Below, in pieces: positions 49,114 through 55,165 of a stretch of DNA of 64,000 nucleotides (the first letter of the stretch is position 1; the number at the start of each line of letters is the position of its first letter). Source of the stretch: Edaphochlamys debaryana. Taxonomy: Eukaryota; Chlorophyta; Chlorophyceae; Chlamydomonadales. The notes below the pieces were generated by a model. The model saw only the letters and a program-made list of their open reading frames with translations. It ran no database searches and was not told where the DNA came from. Made by a program: the position numbers and the translations under genes. The stretch covers positions 62,001-126,000 of the forward strand of contig JAEHOE010000008.1 in NCBI GenBank assembly GCA_016858145.1, given 5' to 3'.

Positions 49114-52100
49114 ATGACGGTGGAAACGAGCGAGGAAGTCTCGCTGCGGCCAATGGCCCTGCGGCCAGGCGGCAATGCTGCCAACCCGTTCTCAGCCTTC
49201 GGCAAGGGCCTCGGCTTTGGCATCAAGGGCAAGGCCAAGGTGAGGCCGTGCTGGTCTTGGCTGCCGAGGCGCGCAGGCACTCGGGAGGGATCTTTTGCGC
49301 GCTCACCACTTGGCGGCGCTCTGCCAAATTGCGCCCTGAGCAGGCCACCTCCACCCTGGACGATAAGCCTCCCAAGAAGAACAGCGAGCGCATTCGGTAT
49401 CCCAAGGAGTTCCTGCTGAAGTTCATGGAGGTGGGGGCGATGGCGGACTGGAGCTGCTACCCCCCGATCGTCCGCAACAGCGGCATGCGATGGACATGCT
49501 GACATCAACTCTTGCCTTCCTGGCCGCAGAAATACAACAACTGCCCCAGCGAGCTGGAGCAGCTGAACCTGGAGATTGTCGTCTCCGGGGAGGACCGCCA
49601 GGCGCAGCAGGAGGTGCTGCAGGCAAGCCGGAGCAGTCTTACGGGCGGGCGGGCATCTGGGCTGGTGTCGTTTCGCGCCAGGAGGCTGGCATTGCCCGCC
49701 GCCGTGGTGTTGCACCTAGCCGCAGAGTTTGGGCTCCCCGTCGCGCGGGCGCTGACCTGTGCGCTTCATGAATGCAGAAAGTGGCCGAGGAGATCGACGA
49801 CCGGGACTGGCGCTCTCGCACGGGCCCGGGCAACTACCGCGAGCCGCGCGAGGAGCGCGAGTTCCGCGAGCCCAAGCCCCAGCGCGAGAACAGGTGTGCC
49901 ATGCGGCCTAGGGCAATGGGCGTCACGGGGGCAGGGATGCCGTTTCATCGCCCCTGTGAGCCATGTGTCCATCCTTGGAGCCATCCTCACGGGCCGTGTT
50001 GAATCCCTCTGCAGGGAGCCCGCGGAGCCGCGCCAGCCCCGCCCGGCGCCCACGCCGTCAGCTGCTTCGGCATCTCAGGCGGCGGCGCCCTCGCAGCCAG
50101 CGGCGCAGCCGTCCAGCGGCGCCCAGGCTTCCGGGGAGAGCTCGCACGCGCGGGAGGTGCGTGGTGCCTGGTGGGGTAGGAAACCCTCCGTCTGTAGCCG
50201 GCGACGCCTGGGGTGCGGCACTACCTGCCGCTGGAGAGGCAGGGAGACTTGGACGGGGGAGACCTGCGCAGGGCGGCAACTCGCTTCAAAGGTCGACGCA
50301 GCTGGGGCCAGAGCTGGGCGTGTGGTGCCTGCGTCAGGCATGCTTGACCCCTCTGCAACCGTCAGGTCCGGTGCAATTGACTGGTGTGGCCCCTGCTTAT
50401 GGCTCGCAGGACTTCGGCCGCTTCGCCAAGGCATCGGAAATGGGCCGCGAGGCGTACCGCGTGGGCGGAACTCTGACGGCTGAGGAGCGGGTGAGCGCTC
50501 GGCGCGGCAGCGGGGGGCTCGCGGCCAGAGGGGCCGGAGCAGGGGTGGCCGCAGCATGAGGGGTGCGGTATGGCAGCAGCAGGCCAGCAGGAGCTGGAGG
50601 CAGAGCGAGCCAGGATTGGGACGGCGGTTCGGAAGGCAGCGGCGACACAGGAGCGGGCGCGGCGGTTTCACTGCGGCGGGGTTGATGTCGACTGCTGCGG
50701 GGGTTCGTGAGGACGAGCCTGCAGCGTCTGCGTTTCCAGGGCGCCTTGCTGGGATCTCGAGCCTCGTGCGCGTGTGCCGACAGCCCCACCTCCCGCCCTC
50801 GTTACCTCGTCCTGGCCAGGCCGTCCGCTCGGTCAAGGGTATCCTGAACAAGCTGACGCCCGAGAAGTTCGAGCGGCTGCTGAACCAGCTGCTGGAGGTG
50901 ATCACGACCGCGGACGTGCTGCAGAAGACGATCGCGCTCGTGTTTGAGAACGCCGTGGAGCAGCCCACCTACGTGGCCATGTACGGCGAGCTGTGCGTGT
51001 CGCTCTCGAAGGAGCTGCCGCACTTCCCGCCGCCGCCCGGCTCCGACAAGCCGCTCACGTTCAGGCAGATTCTGCTGAACACGTGCCAGGACGAGTTCGA
51101 GGCGGCCTCGGAGGCGCGCGAGGTGGGGCTGCAGGACCGGGACGGGGGGGGGCGCTTGCTTGGGAGGGAGAGGGCGCCTTTGTGGGAGGGGGATGTGGGT
51201 CGGCGCAGGGGGGAAAAGGGTGAGCGGGATTGGAGAGCAGAGGGGCAGTCGTGGTGCGGCGGAGAGGCGAGGTGAGGTGAGGCCTTATTTGCTCGTGGCG
51301 AATGGGCAAGAGGATGCCTTTGCTGCGCCTGCCGCTGCCGGACGCGCGGCTGGAGACAGCAGCGGCCAGCGGCAGCGCCCAGGCGCAACGCATCGGAGCC
51401 GGTCTGGAGCCGGCGTGGAGGGCCCGGCGTGCCTCTGGCGTCTGAAGGAGAGCCCGCTGCGACTCTTCCAGCGCCGCGCGTACGCTGAAGTTCTGCACGG
51501 AGCGGGTGCCCCTACCTGGCGAACAGCAGCAGGGCACGGGGCGCCGGCGGCGGCCCCTTGGTCGCCGGCGGCTCTTGCAGGAGGGCAGCAGCAGCGGCAG
51601 TGGTGCGGCGGGCGATCTGGCGAGCCACCGGGTCCTCGCGCTGGGCTTTGTGGAGCGGCCCTGGGAGCAGCCGGAATGCGAGCAGCGCAGACGGGGACGG
51701 AGCACGCAGTGGCGCCGCCACGCATGTCGCTGCCTCTGGGGACCGGGGCAGGGCCCCCCTTCCCAGGGGGCGAACGAGCGTGTCATCGTGGAGCCTGCCA
51801 GTCCAGCAGCCGGGGCGACCACCGCTCTTGGGGCAGCCTCCAGAGCTCGGCTGCGCTTGGGCATGGGCCTGGCCGCAGCCTCCAGTCGGCTCCGCTCAAC
51901 CGAGCACTCGCGGCTACTTGGCCCCCGCGCCCAGGCCTTCTTAGGCGCCCCGGCGGCTCCCATACGCCTGTTCCACTCCCCCGCAGCCCCCCGAGTCTCT
52001 GCCAGCCTTTCCCTCACGGTTCTGTCCCCGGTGCTGCCCACAGGAGATCGCGTCCGTGTCAGAGCCGGCTGAGCGCGAGGAGGCCGAGCGGCGCGTGAAG

Positions 52101-55100
52101 AAGCGCGTGCTGGGTAACATGCGCCTCATGTCGGAGCTGTACAAGAACGAGATGGTCAAGGACTGGATCATGGTTACCTGCATTGACGAGCTGCTCTCGT
52201 CTCGCGCCACCAAGTCGGCCAAGACGCCCCCGGAGGACAACATCGAGGTGGGTGGCTTGACGCCACTGGGTTGGGTTGCGACTCGGGGGCTTGGGGAGGC
52301 GAAGCCCGGTGGAGGTGTGACTGTTCTGTTGGGGCCCAGCCGACGAGCACTAGCGGGGATGTCGGGGTTGTGCAGACGGGGCCATCTAACGGGGGAGCTC
52401 TGGCGTCGGGCACAGCGCAAACGCACACGTTCTACACAGTTGCGATGATGAAAACACTTATTCCTCGTTCAGAACATCCGCTGACGAGACAACGAAGACA
52501 AGCATATGACTGAGCAACTTTGGGCCCCGTTGGTGCACGTATGCATAGCTTGGAGGTAGTTTGCATAAGTGCAGGGTTGATAGCCGAACGGCAGGCTTTC
52601 AGGCTTTCGCAAGGGCAAGGGGTCAACCCATACCGGTACCCATACATCAGACTGGACAAACGACGTTTGCAGTGATGAAAACACTTATTCCTCGTTCAGA
52701 ACATCCGCTGACGAGACAACGAAGACAAGCATATGACTGAGCAACGTCCGGCTGGCAATCTGCGCACATGTGTCAGCTCCTTTGGGCACGGCCGTCTGGG
52801 GGGGGGGCAGGACTGGGCGTCTGCGGATACTGCACTGCGCCCAACGAGGCTTCCCACAACACACGGTTGCAGTGATGAAAACACATATTCCTCGTTCAGA
52901 ACATCCGCTGACGAGACAACGAAGACAAGCATATGACTGAGCAACCGCCTCGTGCCGCACCCCCGTCTACCCCAGCCCCACCTCCACACCGCCTCCCTGC
53001 TCTCTTCTGCTAACTGCCAACACCTCTTCTCGCCCCTCCCATCCCCACCACCCTTCTCCGCAGGCCGTGCTGGAGATCGTCAAGCTGTCGGGCAACAAGC
53101 TGTCCAAATCGGACAAGCCCGAGACGATCAAGAAGCTGAACAAGGTGATGACGACGCTGGAGAGCCTCATGTCGGACAAGTCCAACGGCGTCTCGACGCG
53201 CGTGCGGCTCGCGATCAAGGACGTGATCGAGCTGAAGCGCGCGAACTGGATCCCGCGTCGCGAGGCCTACACGGCTAAGAAGCTGGACGAGGTCCGCGCC
53301 CAGGCCGAGGCCGAGCTGGGCATGATCTCGTCCACCATCGCCGCGTCGCTTCCGTCGCTGCCCAGCGGGCTGCCGCGGTACGGCGAGCCGATGGGCGGCG
53401 CGGGCCTGGGCGGCGGCGCGGGCGGGCGCGACGACGGGGGCCTGTTTGGGCTCATCCCGCCGCTGCGCTCCGACGCCGCGGGCGACGTGGCGCTGTTCCC
53501 GGCCTTCCGCGGCGACGCGGCGGACCGCGGCTTCAGCGGGCAGTCGGCGCTTCTCGGGGACTACACGCCCCCGCCGGAGCGCGTGCGCATTCCCCAAGCC
53601 AAGCCGCAGGAGCCCGCGCCGCAGCGGCCGCAGGAGCCGTCCAGGTGGGGCTGCGGGCGGGGATGCACCAGTCTGCGGGGACCGTAGAGGGGCTTGCCAA
53701 GCAAAGCCTGGCTGCTCTGAACCTGTCACCGCACGGGGGGGGGTCGGGGGGGGGGGGGTACAAAAACAACTAGCTGGTGAAAGGCTGGCTTTAACGTATC
53801 GACCAGCTCGCTCTTTGCCATGCATGTTTGACAAGCTCACGCTTCGCCTTGTAACATCTTAATGCTGCGCCCGTTCCCTTCAGGCCCGCGCCCGCCGCCG
53901 CGCCCGCTCCCGGCAAGGCTCTGTCTGACGAGGAGCTGCTCCGCAAGGCGCAGAACCTGTACCAGGAGTTCTGCTCCACGCTGGACAAGGGGGAGGCCAC
54001 GACCTGCGTGCGGGAGCTGGGGGCGCAGCACCTAGCAAAGGTGGGGAGCGGATGGTGCGAGGGAGGGAGCGGTGAAGGGCGCAAGGGAGACGGGTTCGGG
54101 AGCAACCTGCAGCACCCACTGCTCGCGGGAGCGGTGTTCGGAAGAGTGTACAGACGTGAGACGTTACAGCGCTCGAGCAAGGATGGGTGGTGCAGGGGCT
54201 TGGCCAGCGAACGCTGACAGCTCGGCGCCTGTGCACCCGGGCGGCAGCTGAGAGGGGAGGGCAAAAGGCGGCTGCTGTGGCTGATCCCTTACACCAACCG
54301 CACGCCTGACGCACTGCTTGGCCCGCCAGGTTGTGGAGATCGGTCTGGACCAGGTGTTCAACTCGCTCAAGGAAAAGGAGCAGGACGCGCTGCTGGACCT
54401 GCTGCTGGCACTGCACGAGGCGGGCGCCATCTCGAGCGCACACATGGTGGAGGCGCTCACAACCTACACCACGCAGCTGGAGGACCTCAGGTGGGGAGCG
54501 GTTGGGACCCAGGCGGCGGGAGCCGGGGCTGGGCACTGCGCTGCACGAGGCGCGCGGCAGAAGCCCGTCCTAGGAGTCGATGGCGGAGGGGGCGGCGTGG
54601 GGTCCGCCGGAGGCGGGCAAGGGAAGGAGGGCGATCCGCGCGGCAGGAGGGCAGTCCTAGGGCGGGGTCACCACAATCCGGGCAGCAGGGTCTGCCGTAG
54701 TGCGAGGTTGAGGTCAAGGCCAGGGTGGAGCACCTCTCCTGGGGGCTCTCGCTGGCTCTCACCATCCACATGCCCGCCTCGCCCCGCCCTCCTTCCTTCA
54801 CCACTCACGCGCCCGTCCCTCCCGCTCCGCCCCTCCTCCAACCCCGCAGCATGGACGTGCCCAAGGCGCCCCTGCTGCTGGGCCGCTTCTACGGCTCCTG
54901 CGTGTCCCGCGGCATCGCCGGTCTGGACCTGCTGCCGCAGCTCATGGAGGGGGACGCCTCGGTGGAGCCCAAGCGCAAGTTCAGCGGCGCCGCGTTCAAG
55001 ACGCTGCGGGCGGCCAAGGGCGACGCGGGCCTGGGCGACCTCTGCAAGGAGGCCGGGCTGGCTGCCGGCGGCTTCCTGGAGGCGGATCCCGAGTTCGACA

Positions 55101-55165
55101 AGGACGAGCCCAAGCTGGAGGAGTGGCTCAAGGCCGAGGGGTTGGCGGGCATCGTGCCGGTCTGA
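49114..55165 (+). CDS. EIFISO4G: Translation initiation factor eIF(iso)4G
   Basis: Scaffold that bridges cap-binding eIF(iso)4E, eIF4A and the ribosome. Exons: 49114-49239, 49344-49430, 49530-49622, 49778-49893, 50015-50156, 50410-50490, 50820-51122, 52044-52247, 53064-53644, 53884-54040, 54330-54490, 54850-55165; 788 residues, very close to plant eIF(iso)4G. Seen in order: VSLRPMALRPGGN near the N terminus; an eIF4E-binding motif YPKEFLL (YxxxxL plus a hydrophobic residue) near residue 60; a MIF4G domain at about 216-430 (SVKGILNKLTPEKFERLL, LCVSLSKELP, RVRLAIKDVIELKRANW); a Gly/Pro-rich linker; and an MA3-like domain from about 590 (LSDEELLRKAQNLYQEF). Intron 3 uses a GC donor (CAG|GCAAGC). 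Intron 8 hosts three snoRNAs. The start is the first ATG that reads into the conserved region; an upstream non-coding exon is likely. Confidence 0.93.
52438..52519 (+). ncRNA. U27: Box C/D snoRNA, U27/snR74-like, copy 1
   Basis: Intronic snoRNA predicted to guide 2'-O-methylation of 18S rRNA. Closing stem AGTTGC (52438-52443) pairs with GCAACT (52514-52519). Box C is ATGATGA (52445-52451), D' is CTGA (52481-52484) and D is CTGA (52510-52513). The guide AGACAAGCATATGA (52496-52509), directly before box D, is complementary over 14 bases to TCATATGCTTGTCT of 18S rRNA. The fifth base from box D faces the A methylated by human U27 (A27) and yeast snR74 (A28). A good C' box is not obvious. It would be released from the spliced eIF(iso)4G intron by exonucleases. 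Confidence 0.9.
52662..52748 (+). ncRNA. U27: Box C/D snoRNA, U27/snR74-like, copy 2
   Basis: Same internal sequence as copy 1 from box C to box D. The closing stem GACGTT(T)GC (52662-52670) pairs with GCAACGTC (52741-52748), with one bulged T. Box C is GTGATGA (52672-52678), D' is CTGA (52708-52711) and D is CTGA (52737-52740). The guide is at 52723-52736. Only the stem bases shared with the other copies are constant. The outer stem is different but still paired. Confidence 0.88.
52864..52947 (+). ncRNA. U27: Box C/D snoRNA, U27/snR74-like, copy 3
   Basis: The closing stem CGGTTGC (52864-52870) pairs perfectly with GCAACCG (52941-52947). Box C is GTGATGA (52872-52878), D' is CTGA (52908-52911) and D is CTGA (52937-52940). 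The guide is at 52923-52936. It differs from copies 1 and 2 by one base in the region between C and D' (CACATATTC instead of CACTTATTC). It ends about 115 bases before the intron's acceptor. Confidence 0.9.

Follow-up and report, generated by a model that had tools for sequence, protein, structure and literature searches.

Clusters of snoRNAs in Chlamydomonas reinhardtii were reportedly described by Chen et al. in 2008. Multi-copy snoRNAs of this alga are grouped in introns (PMC7671301). Methylation of the 18S rRNA at Am28 is guided by snR74 in yeast, U27 in human (where the site is Am27), AtU27 in Arabidopsis and CD18 in Dictyostelium (PMC8817022). For Ostreococcus, the caption of a review gives Am28 as mapped, whereas its text describes the Ostreococcus sites as predictions (PMC11542601). 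A1579 of the 18S rRNA is methylated in Arabidopsis, and plant SnoR8 is assigned two 18S sites, U1264 and A1579 (PMC8053127); A1579 is also methylated in tomato and tobacco (PMC11542601). A 2016 survey dates snoR8 and U27 as late, hypothesises that snoR8 is a recent innovation and reports that land-plant snoRNAs, with very few exceptions, are not found in green algae by homology search (PMC5122169). In that survey snoR8 is an orphan for which no target was found, whereas SnoR8 has two mapped 18S sites in PMC8053127. Guides can be carried by one RNA in some lineages and by two in others: U24 is whole in some and split in others, and Neurospora CD5 does the jobs of yeast snR72 and snR78 (PMC2780460).

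Here, we describe a locus in a 64,000-nt stretch of the Edaphochlamys debaryana genome (contig JAEHOE010000008.1, positions 62,001 to 126,000; hereafter the window). One intron carries three near-identical sequences of 82-87 nt each, which are very probably tandem intron-encoded genes for a single dual-guide box C/D snoRNA, predicted to direct methylation of 18S A28 and of the equivalent of A1579. In the main texts of the literature searched, as far as these were available, no description was found of one RNA guiding both A28 and A1579; an earlier description is possible.

Materials and methods

The genome searched comprised 141.89 Mb in 502 contigs. The target sequences for both guides were taken from published primers and not from E. 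debaryana 18S rRNA; a search for 18S in the E. debaryana assembly, using typed query sequences without a positive control, gave no matches. In the published assembly rDNA is present solely as separate contigs (PMC8226300). Exons were counted by mapping the deposited 719-residue host protein, exons 2 and 4 being placed by eye and not by a tblastn row.

Host gene

The intron has the following position (window coordinates).

52248-53063, plus strand: host intron of the eIF(iso)4G gene HYH03_003011, 816 nt, GT...CAG, phase 0

The exons on either side (52044-52247 and the one starting at 53064) are joined in frame inside the MIF4G domain. When spliced, the host gene encodes a protein that matches HYH03_003011, as deposited for E. 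debaryana (719 aa), and has MIF4G and MA3 domains. Two of its algal relatives are named iso-4F subunit p82-34, others isoform 4G and one '4 gamma 1'. Given these names, eIF(iso)4G is a fair name, and the host proposed in an earlier note on this DNA is supported. The intron had been numbered 8 there; mapping of the deposited protein makes it the sixth coding intron. The deposited model (window 49500-55165) is shorter than eight of the nine next-best volvocine relatives listed (776-813 aa; Tetrabaena 600 aa), which suggests that it may lack its first exons.

An Rfam match to the tick-borne flavivirus xrRNA at 53312-53386 on the minus strand (26 bits, cut-off 46.5) is antisense to GC-rich coding sequence and was taken as chance.

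Copies, boxes and terminal stems

The three copies and their boxes were located as follows. Bit scores are those of a model built from these copies; boxes C and D were read from the sequence and from the box/stem scan described below, boxes D' and C' from the sequence.

52438-52519, plus strand: snoRNA copy 1, stem AGTTGC/GCAACT (6 bp), 116 bits
52662-52748, plus strand: snoRNA copy 2, stem GACGTTTGC/GCAACGTC, 110 bits
52864-52947, plus strand: snoRNA copy 3, stem CGGTTGC/GCAACCG (7 bp), 118 bits
52446-52513, 52673-52740 and 52873-52940, plus strand: core of copies 1, 2 and 3, box C TGATGA through box D CTGA, 68 nt each
52445-52451, plus strand: box C ATGATGA of copy 1
52672-52678 and 52872-52878, plus strand: box C GTGATGA of copies 2 and 3
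52470-52473, 52697-52700 and 52897-52900, plus strand: box D' CAGA of copies 1, 2 and 3
52482-52487, 52709-52714 and 52909-52914, plus strand: box C' TGACGA of copies 1, 2 and 3
52510-52513, 52737-52740 and 52937-52940, plus strand: box D CTGA of copies 1, 2 and 3

Both strands of the window were scanned for box C and box D with a stem of 4 or more contiguous bp. The scan returned copies 1-3 and nothing more, in agreement with the placement in the earlier note. At 5 bp two matches remained (copies 1 and 3), against none in any of 60 random windows generated by a first-order Markov model. The copies contain 44-46% GC in a window of 67% GC, and an equally low content occurs in 0.4% of 82-nt windows. 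Nothing stands out in their folding energies (z -0.8 to -2.6).

Copy 2, searched against the whole genome, had at least four matches, namely the three window copies and one on another contig.

G000:C18:1234585-1234660, minus strand: snoRNA copy 4
G000:C18:1234588-1234655, minus strand: core of copy 4 (positions 4956-4889 of the extracted locus L008)

Copy 4 lies inside a 410-nt intron of a gene unrelated to eIF(iso)4G. The host product, as spliced here, gave two matches, one of them a Volvox relative without known function (69% of the query aligned at 73% identity), and has no Pfam domain above its cut-off.

Boxes C, D', C' and D and a terminal stem are present in all four copies, box C (RUGAUGA) and box D (CUGA) adjoining the stem. 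With the guides in register, as set out below, this bears out the earlier assignment to the intronic box C/D class. Copies 1, 2 and 4 share the same 68-nt core, from which copy 3 departs by one base (T-to-A at 52885), outside the boxes and guides. The flanks of the four copies are unrelated (15-35% identity in register).

Contiguous stems measure 6, 4, 7 and 5 bp in copies 1-4, respectively. The GTTGC/GCAAC of copies 1 and 3 is replaced in copy 4 by GCTGC/GCAGC, a single pair having changed on both sides from U-A to C-G; this apparently compensatory change adds some support for a functional RNA. The earlier note had held that the outer stems differ between copies yet stay paired, and that such covariation was strong evidence. 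The pairing stands for copies 1 and 3, but in copy 2, whose arms are 9 and 8 nt long, pairing over the full 8 bp needs one bulged T (read by eye). Its contiguous stem adjoining the boxes is 4 bp, and in its minimum-energy fold the six outer pairs (GACGUU/AACGUC) lead into an internal loop. A bulge is required for a longer stem in copies 2 and 4. The evidential weight given to covariation was too high: in addition to the 4 bp common to all, the four copies together have six contiguous pairs (P about 0.09 under random flanks), and on five covariation measures 17 to 84 of 500 shuffles attain the observed value, the covariation score itself being attained by 17. We take the strong evidence to lie in the guides and boxes and not in stem covariation.

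The whole core is near-identical, spacers included, which is beyond what selection on boxes and guides needs. This would suit a functionless dispersed repeat or a set of snoRNA retrocopies, identical through recent duplication and not through selection, an explanation that we consider very improbable. A search of 142 Mb found at least four copies and no more were seen; both guides and all boxes are intact in each of the four; and the differing stem pair of copy 4 is changed on both sides. Inspection by eye showed no A-tail, and none of the copies is flanked on both sides, within 45 nt, by a direct repeat of at least 7 nt, so retroposition was rejected. Copies of one gene within one genome cannot separate selection from recent copying. 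Our guess is that the identical spacers arose by local duplication and then concerted evolution.

Guide sequences and predicted targets

The guides of the window copies are listed below.

52496-52509, 52723-52736 and 52923-52936, plus strand: D guide AGACAAGCATATGA of copies 1, 2 and 3, facing 18S A28
52460-52469, 52687-52696 and 52887-52896, plus strand: D' guide ATTCCTCGTT of copies 1, 2 and 3, facing 18S AACGAGGAAU (plant Am1579)

The D guide (14 nt) lies immediately 5' of CTGA and is the complement of TCATATGCTTGTCT. In a primer survey GGTTGATYCTGCCAGTAG is yeast 18S 6-23 (PMC3940700), and the primer GTAGTCATATGCTTGTCTC, used on the 18S of the green alga C. sorokiniana, overlaps the end of GGTTGATYCTGCCAGTAG and then extends (PMC11085138). 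Because the overlapping primers place TCATA ending at A28, the fifth base of the D guide faces 18S A28. The 14-nt match reported in the earlier note, with its fifth base opposite A27/A28, is upheld by this register against the primer-placed 18S.

With up to two mismatches allowed, AGACAAGCATATGA has three matches in the window, all exact (shuffles average 0.06). The pattern of D guide plus box D matches four places in the whole genome, all of them these copies (reversed control 0), and a separate U27 gene elsewhere in the genome was therefore rejected. Bacterial matches of the 18-mer (L005-L007) were taken as chance; viral contigs gave no matches to it.

The second guide, unreported in the earlier note, is ATTCCTCGTT (10 nt), immediately 5' of CAGA and unchanged in all four copies. 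It complements AACGAGGAAT, which is yeast 18S 1569-1578 and opens the yeast stretch 1569-1586 (coverages 61.3 and 95.7 in two tables; PMC3940700). The D+5 rule picks yeast A1573, which lies 66 nt before C1639 (yeast Cm1639). Arabidopsis Cm1645 is the counterpart of yeast Cm1639 (PMC11542601), so the target corresponds to Arabidopsis A1579 (Cm1645 minus 66), assuming no gap in those 66 nt. SNORD82/A1678 was also considered as the D' target and was discarded after the position had been fixed. The Rfam snoR8a consensus has AAUUCCUCGUaCUGAA after box C, at D', in the same register as ATTCCTCGTT. From the D+5 position and the published assignment of SnoR8 to A1579 (PMC8053127), we infer that the snoR8a D' guide is the SnoR8 guide for this site.

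A guide is expected to pair over at least about 10 nt at D or D' with its fifth base on the methylated nucleotide; here, pairing extends over 14 nt at D and 10 nt at D', in this register. Chance probabilities were obtained by simple counting, which ignores base composition and the number of ways of looking: 4e-7 for the 14-nt match, 1e-4 for ten matching nt in register with any of the 111 Arabidopsis sites mapped, and 0.005 if the 10 nt may match at any position of the rRNA (about 5400 nt).

When box D' is allowed to be loose, the D' pattern occurs at nine places in the whole genome, four of which are these copies. Its reversed control gives seven, so the other five places are at chance level, and a separate snoR8 gene was rejected. 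At G000:C176:205766-205779 (L022), ATTCCTCGTACTGA resembles the plant snoR8 guide plus box, with no box C within 130 nt upstream; it is probably a chance match.

Box D' departs from the consensus (CAGA, not CUGA), which counts against a dual-guide reading. The RNA could instead be a single-guide equivalent of U27 in which the D guide alone works, CAGA is inactive and the D' match is a coincidence or a relic. The table of PMC11542601, limited to plant-shared sites, gives no entry for Am1579 in human, yeast or Ostreococcus, and this too would suit a single guide. We regard this explanation as unlikely, as it leaves to chance (about 1e-4) a D' match of 10 nt that has the exact D+5 register for a site mapped in three plants, lies at the structural place of the snoR8a guide and is unchanged in four of four copies.

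Family assignment

The earlier note had proposed a covariance-model check of the intron against the Rfam C/D families. In the Rfam search of the window no family attains its gathering score. SNORD103 had the best permissive score (27.7 bits against a cut-off of 45) and outranked snoR8a and U27; identity with SNORD103 or SNORD12 was rejected, these matches being taken as shared boxes with guides that mismatch by eye. SNORD27/U27 (RF00086, gathering score 52 bits) gave 20.4 for copy 2, 18.8 for copy 4 and 18.1 for copy 1, and copy 3 is absent from its listed matches in the window search. The whole-genome search with RF00086 gave no match, and no control genome matched either. For snoR8a (RF01284, gathering score 37 bits) copies 1-4 scored 23.3, 21.9, 22.3 and 20.2, respectively; the genome-wide search with this family gave no match and missed these copies too.

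In its antisense (GACAAGCAUAUG-N-CUGA), target A and register the D guide equals those of U27/SNORD27, snR74 and Neurospora CD21, and this register fits the SNORD27/U27 function, guidance of 18S A27/A28. In the Rfam U27 consensus and in CD21, however, the A28 guide adjoins D', in the C-to-D' half, whereas the algal guide adjoins D, in the C'-to-D half. Box C' TGACGA aligns to box C of Rfam SNORD27 (copies 1 and 4 aligned). Unlike Arabidopsis U27, which is assigned U6 A43 too, the algal RNA has no such guide, as judged by eye against U6. The label 'U27/snR74 type' in the earlier note is thus apt for the target of the D guide but not for the family (18-20 bits against 52, and antisense by D and not D').

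The D' guide AUUCCUCGU stands at the same place after box C as in plant snoR8a, between C and D', where a guide for 18S A1579 is predicted. Copy 1 also begins with the shared GUUGCGAUGAU, and CAGA aligns to the CUGA of Rfam snoR8a (copies 1 and 4 aligned). Unlike snoR8a, the algal RNA has no convincing 3'-half match, has CAGA in place of CUGA at D' and scores 20-23 bits against 37. By class, on the sequence features examined, it is a box C/D snoRNA; by family, on these alignments and scores, it appears to be neither U27 nor snoR8. It looks like the first half of snoR8 joined to the guide half of U27.

Discussion

In the dual-guide reading, the eIF(iso)4G pre-mRNA would be spliced and each snoRNA, if expressed, would be trimmed from the lariat as far as its terminal stem. 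Fibrillarin, Nop56/58 and the 15.5K protein would assemble on it, as is general for box C/D snoRNAs. The D guide would then pair with the 5' end of the 18S rRNA and direct 2'-O-methylation of the A equivalent to yeast A28, and the D' guide would pair near the 3' end and target the SnoR8 site, the A that corresponds to Arabidopsis Am1579, for the same modification. The multiple copies probably serve dosage. Multiple copies clustered within an intron are also a feature of the C. reinhardtii snoRNAs.

The predicted guides for A28 and A1579 reside on one RNA in this alga, against two guide RNAs in Arabidopsis. U24 and CD5 similarly carry on one RNA two guides that occupy two RNAs in other lineages; the site pair here, 18S A28 and A1579, differs from theirs. 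There is about an even chance that the RNA arose as a fusion or represents an ancestral dual guide, composed of the C-to-D' half of snoR8 and the guide half of U27, the latter shifted from D' to D. In that case, the Am1579 guide would be older than land plants, and either one ancestral RNA served both ends of the 18S rRNA and was later split in land plants, or the algal lineage fused two.

The locus is very probably a real RNA gene of an ordinary kind, which the earlier note recognised correctly, and its second guide makes the RNA more informative than that note supposed. Both guides occur in one alga on one RNA that scores below the Rfam cut-offs of both families, an indication that the register of guides against mapped sites allows them to be traced where whole-RNA homology fails. 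It also raises a testable question, whether volvocine algae methylate the Am1579 site of plants.
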